37,702 bases of DNA, from positions 4,226-41,927 of the IMG/VR virus record IMGVR_UViG_3300030382_002965, one strand, 5' to 3'. The stretch comes from a virus. Under the pieces are notes generated by a model. The model did no database searches. It worked only from the letters and a program-made list of their open reading frames with translations, and was not told the DNA's origin. A program made the translations under genes and the position numbers. Of this stretch, positions 4,387 through 35,785 are shown one piece after another (within the stretch, counting starts at the first letter, position 1; each line of letters begins with the position of its first letter).

Positions 4387-4771
4387 TAAAACTATTAGAG
4401 GTATTGCTGTTACCGCATGCAAGGCCTCTAAAAGAAGAGCCAGGGTAAAAAATTTACCATTTAATTTAACATCAAATTATTTGGAAAGTATTTTTCCTAA
4501 AAATTTTAGATGTCCAATTCTTAATTATAAAATGAGAGTATCTAATAAGTCTTTAGGTAGATTAAGCCCAACATTAGATAGAATTAATCCAAGAAAAGGA
4601 TATATAAAAGGTAATGTAGAATTTGTGGCTAATATAGCAAACCTAATGATGTCTTCTGCAACAGGAAAAGATATTGAAAGGTTTGTTAAATGGGCAACAA
4701 AAAAATATAATATAACAAGAGAGGAAATTTATGGGAAAAGATACAACATTTATAAAACACACAAACTGTGA
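4361..4771 (+). CDS. HNH-type endonuclease
   Basis: A 136-residue protein. CPILNYKM (51-58) is followed by SPTLDRINPRKGYIKGNVEF (69-88), the D-R-I-x-P-x-K-G-Y-x-x-G-N-V pattern of small phage HNH endonucleases; D73 and N85 are the expected active-site positions. Only one Cys is present in this region, so the usual Cys4 zinc frame is lacking. It lies between the exonuclease and the primase-helicase and overlaps both (26 and 41 bases), so it may do the branch-resolving job of T7 gp3 or endonuclease VII. A mobile homing enzyme is the alternative. The ATG at 4361 is preferred to that at 4355 because the GGAAAGG site is then 8 bases away. Confidence 0.7.
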   Translation: MAFNQSEYNKTIRGIAVTACKASKRRARVKNLPFNLTSNYLESIFPKNFRCPILNYKMRVSNKSLGRLSPTLDRINPRKGYIKGNVEFVANIANLMMSSATGKDIERFVKWATKKYNITREEIYGKRYNIYKTHKL

Positions 4772-6365
4772 GCCTTGTGGTAGCAGTGACGCTAATGCTG
4801 TTTATAGTGATGGTAGTACATATTGTTTTAGTTGTAAGAAAACTAATCCAAGTGGGACAGAGGAAACAACGCTTGAGTTTAATGTAGTACAAAAGCATTT
4901 AAGTTTAGAAGAAATAGAACAGTTACCTATAGAAAGTTTTAGAGGTATTAGTAAAAAAGTTTTATATAATGCTGGTGTTAAAGTTGAGTATGATGAAAAT
5001 AGAAATATTATTAATCATTATTATCCACTTACTGTAAATAAAAAAGTTAAGTCATATAAGAAAAGAATAGTAGCTACTAAAGAATTTAGAGCTGTTGGTA
5101 AAATTGAAGTACCTGAATTATTTAATCAATGTAATAGTGGTAAAAGAAAAAATTTAGTTATTACTGAGGGAGAAATAGATTGTTTATCTATATTAGAAAT
5201 GCTTACAAAAGCTAAAGCACAATTTGATGTAGTTAGTATTGTTAATGGTGCACCAAGTGCTAGAAGAAATATTGCATCTAATTTAGATTTTATTAATAAA
5301 TACGAGAAAGTATTTTTAGCATTTGATAATGATGAGCCCGGTATTGAGGCCGCAAATGATGTAGCACATATAATTAAGCCTGGTAAATCACATATTGTTA
5401 ATAGTATATTTAAAGATGCAAATGAAGCATTAGTTAAAGAACAATCTAATGCATATTTACAAGATATATGGAGCGCTAAAACATATAAACCTGATAACTT
5501 TGTTAGTGGTGAAAAGATTTGGCAAGCATTTAAGGAAAGATCTGAAGTTAAATCAGTACCGTACCCTGATTGTTTAAAAGGTTTAAATGATAAATTATTT
5601 GGAATGAGATTAGGTGAGATAACTTTATTTACATCTGGTACAGGTAGTGGAAAATCAACAGTTGTTAAAGAGACAATATTAAACTTATTAGATAAGACAG
5701 AAGATAAAATTGGTTTAATTTCTTTAGAAGAAAGTATTGGTGATACAGCAACAAGATTAATTGGTATGTCTATTAATAAAAATATTAGATTTCCAGATGA
5801 TGTTACTGAAGAAGAAGCTAGGGTTGGTTATAATAAAGTATTTAAAGATGAAAGACTTATCTTATTAGACCACCAAGGATCTGTTCAAGATACTTCTTTA
5901 TTAGATAGGATTGAATATTTGGCTGCATTAGGTTGTACTTATTTAATACTTGACCATATTACTATAGCCGTTTCAGAAGGAATTGATGGTGCTACAGGTA
6001 ATGAAGCAGTTGATAAGGTTATGAGTTCTTTATTAAAAATTGTTAAAAGATATAATATTCACTTAACATTAATATCTCATTTAAGAAAAAGTTCAGGTGA
6101 GGGAAAAAGTTTTGAGGAAGGTGTTATGCCTAATTTAGATTCTATAAAAGGATCTGGATCAATTAAACAAATAAGTTTTGACATTATAGGATTTGCTAGA
6201 AATATGATGGCAGCCGAGAAAGCTGATAGAAGTATAGTAAAATTTGCTGTACTAAAATCACGATTTAGCGGTGAAACAGGTCATTGTGGACAGGCGACTT
6301 ATAATGTAAGTACAGGAAGGCTAAATTATAATGAAAGTAATTTAGCTTTTAAAGAAGTACTATAA
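4731..6365 (+). CDS. Primase-helicase (T7 gp4-like)
   Basis: A 544-residue fusion that unwinds the fork and lays down lagging-strand primers. The N-terminal zinc finger uses C13, C16, C32 and C35. The TOPRIM primase domain shows VITEGEIDCL (about 143-152) and FLAFDNDEPG (about 196-205). The RecA-like helicase has Walker A TSGTGSGKST (301-310), an acidic Walker B block YLILDHI (D408) and the ISHLRK block after it. All parts of both enzymes are present. It lacks the long acidic C-terminal tail of T7 gp4. GAGGAA precedes the start, which overlaps the HNH gene by 41 bases. It is the last gene of the plus-strand unit. Confidence 0.93.
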   Translation: MGKDTTFIKHTNCEPCGSSDANAVYSDGSTYCFSCKKTNPSGTEETTLEFNVVQKHLSLEEIEQLPIESFRGISKKVLYNAGVKVEYDENRNIINHYYPLTVNKKVKSYKKRIVATKEFRAVGKIEVPELFNQCNSGKRKNLVITEGEIDCLSILEMLTKAKAQFDVVSIVNGAPSARRNIASNLDFINKYEKVFLAFDNDEPGIEAANDVAHIIKPGKSHIVNSIFKDANEALVKEQSNAYLQDIWSAKTYKPDNFVSGEKIWQAFKERSEVKSVPYPDCLKGLNDKLFGMRLGEITLFTSGTGSGKSTVVKETILNLLDKTEDKIGLISLEESIGDTATRLIGMSINKNIRFPDDVTEEEARVGYNKVFKDERLILLDHQGSVQDTSLLDRIEYLAALGCTYLILDHITIAVSEGIDGATGNEAVDKVMSSLLKIVKRYNIHLTLISHLRKSSGEGKSFEEGVMPNLDSIKGSGSIKQISFDIIGFARNMMAAEKADRSIVKFAVLKSRFSGETGHCGQATYNVSTGRLNYNESNLAFKEVL

Positions 6366-6369
6366 CCAG

Positions 6370-6516
6370 TTTCGGTTAGTATTAGAACTGCACGTAAGAC
6401 CAGATATGGCAACAGCTAATAGCAATGATACATAATGGATTAATAGGCGATCCTCTCTCAAGCCTACCATTTGTATTAGTAAACCGAAGTAGCTGAGCAC
6501 CTACTAAAAAGGCTCA
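6370..6516 (+). ncRNA. Candidate structured RNA with H-type pseudoknot
   Basis: No reading frame of note. TTCGGTT (6371-6377) closes with AACCGAA (6482-6488). Inside, TATTAG (6380-6385) pairs with CTAATA (6416-6421). ATACA-t-AATGG (6428-6438) pairs with CCATTTGTAT (6467-6476), extended by TAGGC (6444-6448) with GCCTA (6462-6466). Next, AGTAG (6488-6492) pairs with CTACT (6501-6505), while loop bases TGAGC (6494-6498) match GCTCA (6512-6516), an H-type pseudoknot. It begins just after the helicase stop and ends ten bases before a terminator, so it would form the 3' end of the early transcript. I do not recognise a known RNA family. The structure is read by eye. Confidence 0.45.
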
Positions 6517-6525
6517 CGGAATTTA

Positions 6526-6549
6526 AAAGGGGGGCATTAAACCCCCTTT
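6526..6549. terminator. Bidirectional Rho-independent terminator
   Basis: AAAGGGGG (6526-6533) pairs perfectly with CCCCCTTT (6542-6549) around an 8-base loop. T-rich sequence follows in both directions. It lies between the ends of the two convergent transcription units, one base from the last minus-strand stop codon, and should end transcription from both sides. Confidence 0.85.
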
Positions 6550-6550
6550 A

Positions 6551-6772
6551 TTAATTATCTAAAATTAGTTTTTCAATTGTATGTGAACCATCGATATTAA
6601 TTTCGAGTTCTGCCTTAGATTTGATACATTGATACTTAACACTGCTATTAGATTTTAAACTTCTTTTAGCAATACGTTGTCCTTTAAGACATTCACTCAT
6701 TGTCGGCTGAATTCTCGCCTCTTTAATTTCCCCATTAATTATCATCAATAATGCTACAACTACTTCAACCAT
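6551..6772 (-). CDS. Conserved small phage protein, unknown function
   Basis: A 73-residue protein at the very end of the late unit. Its N-terminus is hydrophobic (MVEVVVALLMIING), like a short signal or anchor. A central SECLKGQRIAKR segment follows, then YQCIKSKAELEIN. Short proteins of this look are common near the lysis genes of marine phages, but I know no function. The two Cys residues (SEC and YQC) could form a disulfide if the protein is exported. The start codon overlaps the stop of the upstream gene as TAATG, and the terminator follows at once. Confidence 0.6.
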   Translation of the reverse strand: MVEVVVALLMIINGEIKEARIQPTMSECLKGQRIAKRSLKSNSSVKYQCIKSKAELEINIDGSHTIEKLILDN

Positions 6773-12370: not shown

Positions 12371-13066
12371 TTATGTTTGAACTATTTCATCTAATGTACC
12401 ATCAGAATTATAGCTAAACGTTTTTGTTGTTGTTGCAGACCCATCCGTTAATACAACCGTATTAATAGAATCATCTGAGTTATAAGTTATTGTTTTATAA
12501 GCACTGTTATTATAGTCTATCCTAGTTAAATTACCGTTAGTGTAAGTAAATTCTGGTCCAATATAATTATTAGATGAACCAGATGGTCCTTGTATACCCT
12601 GTATACCTTGGATCCCCTGAATACCTTGATCACCAGTATCTCCTTTTTCTCCTTGAGAACCAGTTGAACCAGTTGCACCCACTGAACCTTGAGGCCCTGA
12701 CGAACCAGTATTACCTTGAATTCCTTGATCTCCAGTATCACCTTTTACTCCATCAGCCCCTTGTATTCCTTGAATACCTTGAGCACCTTGAGCACCATCA
12801 TTACCAGTTAAACCTTGTATTCCTTGAATACCTTGTTCGCCTTGTGGCCCTCTTTTAGGATATAGAGATATTTCCTCTTTAGTATTTTTTATACTAACAG
12901 GATTGACACTATGATCTTTGACACTAATAGGATTAGAAGTAACATTAGTATTTAAAGTCTGTTCATTATTTTGTATTTTAACAGCATCTTTAACTTCAAT
13001 ATTAATATTCTTCTTTGTGTTATTAACGACTATCTTGTTTGTGTTATCAGTAATATTAATAGTCAT
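12371..13066 (-). CDS. Collagen-like repeat tail protein
   Basis: A 231-residue protein in three parts. Residues 1-72 are Asn/Val/Lys-rich strands. Residues 73-163 are about 30 uninterrupted Gly-X-Y triplets with many GIQ, GAQ and GDT units. The last 65 or so residues form a short beta region with two similar lines ([18 protein letters not shown] and [15 protein letters not shown]). Collagen-like stretches in phage fibres form rigid trimeric stalks that carry an adhesive head, so this is probably a stalk or connector in the fibre system. The triplet region can expand or contract by recombination between its repeated GGNATTCAA-type codons. Confidence 0.75.
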
Positions 13067-27095: not shown

Positions 27096-27494
27096 TTAAA
27101 TTGATCTGAAGTTGGCGGTATAATTCACGTTATATAAACTTGAATCTTTCTCGTCAACTCCTATATTAGTTATAAAGCTATTAGTTGTTTGCAGATACCC
27201 AGAAATTTCTTTCCGATCTAGTAAGTTTTTTAATATATCAGCAATCTCATAAGCACGTTTCATTCCAGCACCAGAAGGTACAAAAATTTGACATACTACT
27301 TGACCGTTTGAATATATATCTTCATTAAAAACTAACTCTGAAGAAAAAGGCAAGACACTAACCCTAACCCATTCATCTGCGCTTATCGCGCCTTGATAAT
27401 TGGCAGGGAATGCTTTGATATTATGTGATGTCCATTCAGTAGTAGTAAATAGAGATTCAACAGAAGTTAACAATTGTGTTATTGTTGCAGTCAT
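27096..27494 (-). CDS. Putative tail terminator protein
   Basis: A 132-residue protein. A helix (TATITQLLTSVESLF) is followed by strands WVRVSVLPFSSELVFNE, VCQIFVPSGAGMKRAYEI and IGVDEKDSSLYNVNYTANF. This alpha/beta order, WVRVSVLP, and the place just before the tail tube gene fit the lambda gpU/DUF4128-like tail terminators, which cap the tail and join it to the head. I assign it from position and pattern, not from a clear signature. Confidence 0.6.
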   Translation of the reverse strand: MTATITQLLTSVESLFTTTEWTSHNIKAFPANYQGAISADEWVRVSVLPFSSELVFNEDIYSNGQVVCQIFVPSGAGMKRAYEIADILKNLLDRKEISGYLQTTNSFITNIGVDEKDSSLYNVNYTANFRSI

Positions 27495-27495
27495 A

Positions 27496-27852
27496 TTAAG
27501 CCTCTCTTCCTACTTGAACGTTTATTATAAAACCATTATCCTCATATTTATTAATTGCATAAGTTTTACTTCCAAAAACGACACTGTCGTAATTATCAAT
27601 AACTTTAGAATCAATATCAGAAGATTTTAATATTATATCAGCATTTATTCTTGGTTTATCATCATTGGTTTTATAACTATTTGTTACAATACCTTTGATG
27701 GTTATTGGATCAGCAGTTGATGAATCTACAGTTTGTGTTCCAAAATTATAACCAGTAACGGTTATATTTGTAAACTGTATATCATCAGCTAAATCTCCAA
27801 CCAAAGAAAATGCATTAGTGACGTTGCTATTAATAAGTGTTTTATAACTCAT
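27496..27852 (-). CDS. Putative head-closure / neck protein
   Basis: A 118-residue beta-rich protein (DIQFTNITVTGYNFGTQTV, then ADIILKSSDIDSKVIDNYD, then KTYAINKYEDNGFIINVQVG). It has the size and strand content of head-closure (stopper) proteins such as SPP1 gp16. It lies between the connector and tail-terminator genes where that protein is expected. The start overlaps the connector stop by one base. No unique motif is visible, so the call rests on order and size. Confidence 0.55.
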   Translation of the reverse strand: MSYKTLINSNVTNAFSLVGDLADDIQFTNITVTGYNFGTQTVDSSTADPITIKGIVTNSYKTNDDKPRINADIILKSSDIDSKVIDNYDSVVFGSKTYAINKYEDNGFIINVQVGREA

Positions 27853-35422: not shown

Positions 35423-35785
35423 TTATTCTATTCTTAATTCTGTTTTTCTATCAATTACAAAATGTTTAATATTACTTGGTTCAAACTGTTCAATATGTTT
35501 AAATACAATATTTTTATCTAATTTACCACAAGTATATACATCAAGTTGTAAAACCGCCGGGTCGCACTCATCCCATGTATGAATTGCAATATGTGAGGTA
35601 TTTAAAATTGCTAAACAAGTTAATCCTCTATTGCCTTTTTTATCACAATAAACAGCTAATGGTTGTCCACCTAATCGCTTCATTCCAATAGCTGTTATTA
35701 ATTTATTTATCCATTTTTTAATTTTACGAACATCTTTAGGTGGTCTGTTTATATTTGCTCTTATAATTATGTGTTTATGTTCCAT
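35423..35785 (-). CDS. speD: S-adenosylmethionine decarboxylase-like (pyruvoyl, SpeD/SpeH type)
   Basis: A 120-residue proenzyme of the short bacterial type. The cleavage region reads NTSHIAIHTWDE with S64 as the residue that would become the pyruvoyl group, H69 for processing, and C86 in DVYTCG as the catalytic Cys. The residue before S64 is Thr where Glu is standard, and the H69-C86 spacing is two residues longer than in Thermotoga SpeD. The enzyme makes decarboxylated SAM for spermidine, which could neutralise packaged DNA. Some SpeD relatives instead decarboxylate ornithine or arginine, and that remains open here. Confidence 0.8.
   Translation of the reverse strand: MEHKHIIIRANINRPPKDVRKIKKWINKLITAIGMKRLGGQPLAVYCDKKGNRGLTCLAILNTSHIAIHTWDECDPAVLQLDVYTCGKLDKNIVFKHIEQFEPSNIKHFVIDRKTELRIE

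Follow-up and report, generated by a model that had tools for sequence, protein, structure and literature searches.

Position and architecture of the RNA

About 150 nt directly after the primase-helicase gene of this phage carry no reading frame, and the locus raises the question of whether they encode a conserved RNA and, if so, what that RNA would do. The window, the whole stretch of DNA analysed (37,702 nt), comprises bases 4226-41927 of the 41,927-base virus record IMGVR_UViG_3300030382_002965. Its resemblance is to the siphophage Kolga, a Pelagibacter phage isolate which has SAR11 strain H2P3-alpha as its host. SAR11 are the commonest bacteria in the ocean and their phages rank among the most abundant marine viruses.

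On the + strand of the window, genes for an Enc34-type ssDNA-binding protein, DNA polymerase A, a 5'-3' exonuclease and the primase-helicase follow one another in this order. The main genes from 6551 onward are on the - strand, and therefore the RNA is placed at the end of the replication operon, facing convergent genes. Among the - strand genes, a small gene without an assigned function (6551-6772) has DNA similarity in Pelagibacter phages of other groups (HTVC111P, HTVC010P, HTVC103P, and others), a collagen triple-helix repeat protein is encoded amid structural genes (12371-13066), and an S-adenosylmethionine decarboxylase gene (35423-35785) adjoins ribonucleotide reductase genes. A conserved promoter at the 3' end of the helicase gene was considered and found no support, there being no + strand promoter-like site just upstream; synonymous conservation in the last 16 helicase codons rises only slightly (0.16 vs about 0.22). 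The features of the locus are as follows.

4718-4725, + strand: Shine-Dalgarno sequence AGAGAGGA of the primase-helicase, the proposed loop partner; 8 Watson-Crick pairs to 6451-6458, duplex -13.2 kcal/mol
4731-6365, + strand: primase-helicase gene (Toprim and DnaB_C), 544 aa; open reading frame with Pfam PF13155 and PF03796
6371-6488, + strand: three-way junction closed by P1; compensatory change in P1 in relative L416, 99.7% of alignment cells paired
6380-6421, + strand: arm P2 (6380-6385 with 6416-6421, 6388-6390 with 6413-6415, 6400-6402 with 6407-6409); compensatory changes in 8 of 11 modelled pairs
6426-6478, + strand: arm P3 (6426-6432 with 6472-6478, 6434-6438 with 6467-6471, 6444-6448 with 6462-6466); compensatory changes in 11 of 15 modelled pairs
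6451-6458, + strand: putative anti-Shine-Dalgarno apical loop UCCUCUCU of P3; probability of being unpaired at least 0.93, complementarity to the helicase Shine-Dalgarno sequence kept across phages
6489-6516, + strand: H-type pseudoknot directly 3' of the junction (stem 1, 6489-6492 with 6501-6504; stem 2, 6494-6498 with 6512-6516); stem variants among copies
6526-6549, + strand: intrinsic terminator, present in only a minority of relatives

The RNA begins 5 nt past the helicase stop codon (TAA, 6363-6365), with P1 starting at 6371, where the first-pass annotation had already placed a structured, frame-free RNA directly after the gene. The closing stem, to which it gave 7-8 pairs, is the 7 bp P1 (6371-6377 with 6482-6488), and its two internal helices correspond to arms P2 and P3; minimum free energy folding of the window RNA alone returns the same three-way junction. 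The hairpin that it described downstream needs partial revision: the pairing of the loop UGAGC (6494-6498) with GCUCA (6512-6516), 5 bp, stands, and the supposed five-pair hairpin is a stem of 4 bp (GUAG/CUAC) that forms stem 1 of the pseudoknot. Strongly conserved unpaired bases are found in the junction (about 6378-6379, 6422-6425, and 6479-6481) and in the internal loop of P2 (6391-6399). The folding energy is only mildly unusual (z of -1.5 for 6366-6525 and -2.9 with the terminator included), therefore proof of the structure has to come from covariation.

Covariation among relatives

Relatives were gathered by helicase similarity and with two DNA patterns, and covariance model R1 aligned 43 distinct copies. 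In this alignment, which is fitted to the model, 98.0% of the cells at the proposed pairs are paired, and 25 of the 42 pairs, pseudoknot included, have changes on both sides. None of 500 shuffles matched the observed values, and pairing falls to 26-43% when partners are slid by one to three columns. Aligning 38 copies with plain MAFFT leads to the same conclusion, with 96.0% paired and 14 pairs changed on both sides.

For example, UUCGGUU/AACCGAA in P1 is UUCAGUU/AACUGAA in L416, a change from GC to AU, and UGGUAG/CUACUA in P3 is replaced with UGAUAC/GUAUUA, UGAUGU/GCAUUA, or UCUUAG/CUAAGA. Likewise, the outer pair of pseudoknot stem 1 occurs as GU, GC, CG, or AU and its second pair as CG or UA, and stem 2 occurs as UGAGC/GCUCA, UGGGU/GCCCA, UGGGAC/GUCCCA, or GGGG/CCCC. 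The covariation to which the first-pass annotation had looked for a decision is present, every helix that it named being held by compensatory changes. GU wobbles exceed AC mismatches (94 vs 12 cells), therefore the constraint is on the + strand RNA. Judged by these comparisons between copies, the conserved folded RNA is real and it acts as + strand RNA.

Distribution and neighbouring genes

In related phages, where the first-pass annotation proposed to look, the same structure is found downstream of the helicase genes: approximately 50 related phage contigs, the isolate Kolga among them, carry the RNA after the primase-helicase gene. Upstream of the RNA there is nearly always the helicase gene, and the gap between its stop codon and the RNA is 0-20 nt in most relatives and about 500 nt in L416 and L418. 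In these two, a GIY-YIG type gene is inserted between the helicase and the RNA (4601-5155 in L416), the RNA is retained, and the last codons of the inserted gene form the 5' strand of P1.

The 3' neighbours vary, being a SET-domain gene, an HNH gene, a membrane protein, proteins of 66-85 aa, tRNA-Asn, or a terminator. The terminator is found in the window, L005, L347/L358, and L381/L383, and a gene or tRNA is in its place in most relatives; it is therefore outside the conserved unit, and the earlier description of a unit ending in a terminator holds for the window and a minority of the family. In L392 (4825-4900) and L384 (13339-13413), tRNA-Asn (GTT) begins within a few nucleotides of the pseudoknot end, therefore RNase P would set the 3' end of the RNA. 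The RNA of L408 is reduced to P1, one hairpin with the loop AUUCUCUC, and the pseudoknot, without the conserved P2 arm and junction; a gene similar in appearance to the S-adenosylmethionine decarboxylase gene of the window comes after it.

Where helicase identity is about 54% or lower, coding sequence comes next and the RNA is absent, and covariance model R1 gave no convincing match among those of these relatives that were searched. A number of other candidates were rejected. Two loose DNA patterns run against viral contigs gave chance matches among the matches listed (L068-L307), an Oligoflexia match of the tight DNA pattern (L482) contains no RNA by the covariance model, and matches at E 0.5 in L455, L458, and L460 were rejected as chance.

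Complementarity to the helicase Shine-Dalgarno sequence

Nearly all copies have a UCCUCUC-rich apical loop on P3, including L416, in which the underlying stem has been replaced. A search for its complement leads to the Shine-Dalgarno sequence of the helicase itself, AGAGAGGA, which is predicted to be mostly unpaired in its local fold; this match to the helicase's own ribosome binding site was missed in the first-pass annotation and is new here. The loop complement is not enriched over the window as a whole. Among the 38 gene starts of the window, AGAGAGGA/UCCUCUCU is the best combination, and among the 60 gene starts of Kolga the helicase has the longest perfect match, 7 nt.

Across the relatives, perfect matches of 7 nt or more occur at 31 of 41 helicase starts and at 4 of 277 other ORF starts in the same loci. 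At least 6 contiguous pairs are present in 38 of the 41 distinct loop/Shine-Dalgarno combinations, and the helicase start is strictly the best in 34 of 41 loci. In helicase relatives that have no RNA, the match is at most 5 nt in 20 of 21 and 6 nt once. Own loop/Shine-Dalgarno pairs beat swapped pairs, with none of 20,000 permutations reaching the observed value. Because the relatives are not independent, the swap test was repeated after thinning by helicase identity, giving P values of 0.00005 (28 representatives), 0.0017 (12 representatives), and 0.067 (7 representatives), so that it is weak after the strictest thinning.

Loop and target have changed jointly in several phages: loop UUCUCUCC is found with GGAGAGAA in L408 (the final C being counted from the hairpin closing pair), ACCUCUCU with AGAGAGGU in L005, UUUUCCUCU with AGAGGAAAA in L426, and UUUCUC with GAGAAA in L392. 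In L391/L388 the match is 5 nt (6 with GU), and in the L010/L400/L338 lineage, which has kept the RNA, the helicase Shine-Dalgarno sequence is AAAGG and the match is 3 nt only. Taking the lineages together, the sequences indicate that the loop/Shine-Dalgarno complementarity is conserved and partly co-varying.

Other gene starts also match the loop. Three Kolga genes (RNA polymerase, gp41, and gp20) surpass the helicase in Shine-Dalgarno duplex energy through GU pairs. In the window, the gene at 27096-27494 has a 7-nt match at its Shine-Dalgarno sequence (27501-27506, - strand); in the Kolga gene at the corresponding position, the match is apparently absent.

Proposed function

Probably, the RNA at the 3' end of the transcript represses translation of the helicase by pairing of its anti-Shine-Dalgarno loop with the helicase Shine-Dalgarno sequence, as negative feedback. 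The three-way junction would display the apical loop and the 3' pseudoknot would cap the RNA. The loop would pair with the Shine-Dalgarno sequence of the upstream primase-helicase gene, either in the same transcript or in trans as a released RNA, and the duplex would block ribosome loading and limit helicase synthesis when transcription has reached the end of the operon. We infer that the duplex would form in cells, that the helicase would be repressed, and that the pseudoknot would protect the 3' end. Counting against this model are the L010 lineage, which is without the complementarity, the capacity of a CU-rich loop to pair with many strong Shine-Dalgarno sequences, and the conserved junction and internal-loop bases, for which it does not account.

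It is possible, but unlikely, that the phage RNA instead stands alone, acting in trans mainly on other mRNAs, of phage or host, that have GA-rich Shine-Dalgarno sequences; the helicase would then be one target of several. The better duplex energies in Kolga and the 7-nt match of the window gene at 27096-27494 would fit such an RNA, as would its persistence after the GIY-YIG insertion and in L010 despite the changed helicase Shine-Dalgarno sequence. However, conservation is lacking for the other matches, with an ordinary GGAGG at the RNA polymerase gene in relatives, and a 7-nt match is rare at other ORF starts (the 4 of 277 given above).

Less probably, the RNA would be a stabiliser or processing element at the 3' end of the helicase operon mRNA, with the loop match as a by-product, a reading for which we see about one chance in ten. 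Its 3' position and compact fold agree with this, and the tRNA that immediately follows in L392 and L384 would leave the RNA with a clean 3' end, but the complementarity of the loop to a site 1.7 kb away, kept despite the replaced stem in L416, L392, and L408, is left unexplained. A cis-regulatory element for the next gene downstream, either a riboswitch or an autogenous protein site, is highly improbable; a start codon does follow about 20 nt after the pseudoknot in most relatives, but the gene in that position is not constant, which makes a riboswitch for it unlikely. A catalytic RNA, such as a self-cleaving ribozyme, to which the strongly conserved unpaired bases of the junction and P2 internal loop might point, is scarcely credible given the lack of any Rfam ribozyme match and the loss of the P2 arm and junction in L408. 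A hammerhead-like string in L384 (CUGAUGA..GAAA) does not occur in other members.

Relation to known systems

The favoured function, repression of the helicase through its Shine-Dalgarno sequence, has precedents. In icaR of Staphylococcus aureus, the 3'UTR motif UCCCCUG pairs with the Shine-Dalgarno sequence of its own mRNA and blocks ribosome loading, cleavage by RNase III has been shown, and it is established that such antisense pairing blocks 30S binding (PMC3868564). The phage RNA likewise has a pyrimidine-rich motif 3' of the gene that is complementary to the Shine-Dalgarno sequence of the same mRNA; unlike that of icaR, the motif (UCCUCUC) is displayed in a loop by a dedicated scaffold that covaries and is unrelated in sequence. 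In Vibrio cholerae, the 3'UTR-derived sRNAs OppZ and CarZ demonstrate that RNAs from the 3' end of an operon can repress their own transcript, OppZ being 52 nt and released by RNase E (PMC7398697). Similarly, the phage RNA comes right after a stop codon, and its proposed target is translation initiation of a gene in its own transcript, which it would repress; it differs in being about 150 nt long, in having a three-way junction and pseudoknot, and in being mostly without its own terminator.

Phage-encoded small RNAs that regulate by base pairing have been reviewed (PMC12197685), and the present RNA resembles them in being phage-encoded and a proposed base-pairing regulator; a term search of that review found no mention of a pseudoknotted, helicase-linked, or autoregulating RNA. 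The first-pass annotation could assign no known RNA class, and this is borne out by Rfam 15, in which neither the window nor any member tested has a match at the gathering threshold, three members having only sub-threshold chance matches. Literature searches found no relevant pelagiphage non-coding RNA and no description of the RNA family. This is a new RNA family whose proposed mechanism varies a known theme, 3'UTR/anti-Shine-Dalgarno control.

Being absent from Rfam 15 and having strong covariation, the family can be added to it as it stands. The loop/Shine-Dalgarno pairing makes a compensatory-mutation test simple, and the isolate Kolga, with its host H2P3-alpha, carries the RNA. To our knowledge, and judging by the literature searches, little is known about post-transcriptional control of a phage replication module by its own structured RNA. 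By analogy with icaR and OppZ/CarZ, the RNA should lower helicase synthesis in these phages once the operon has been transcribed.
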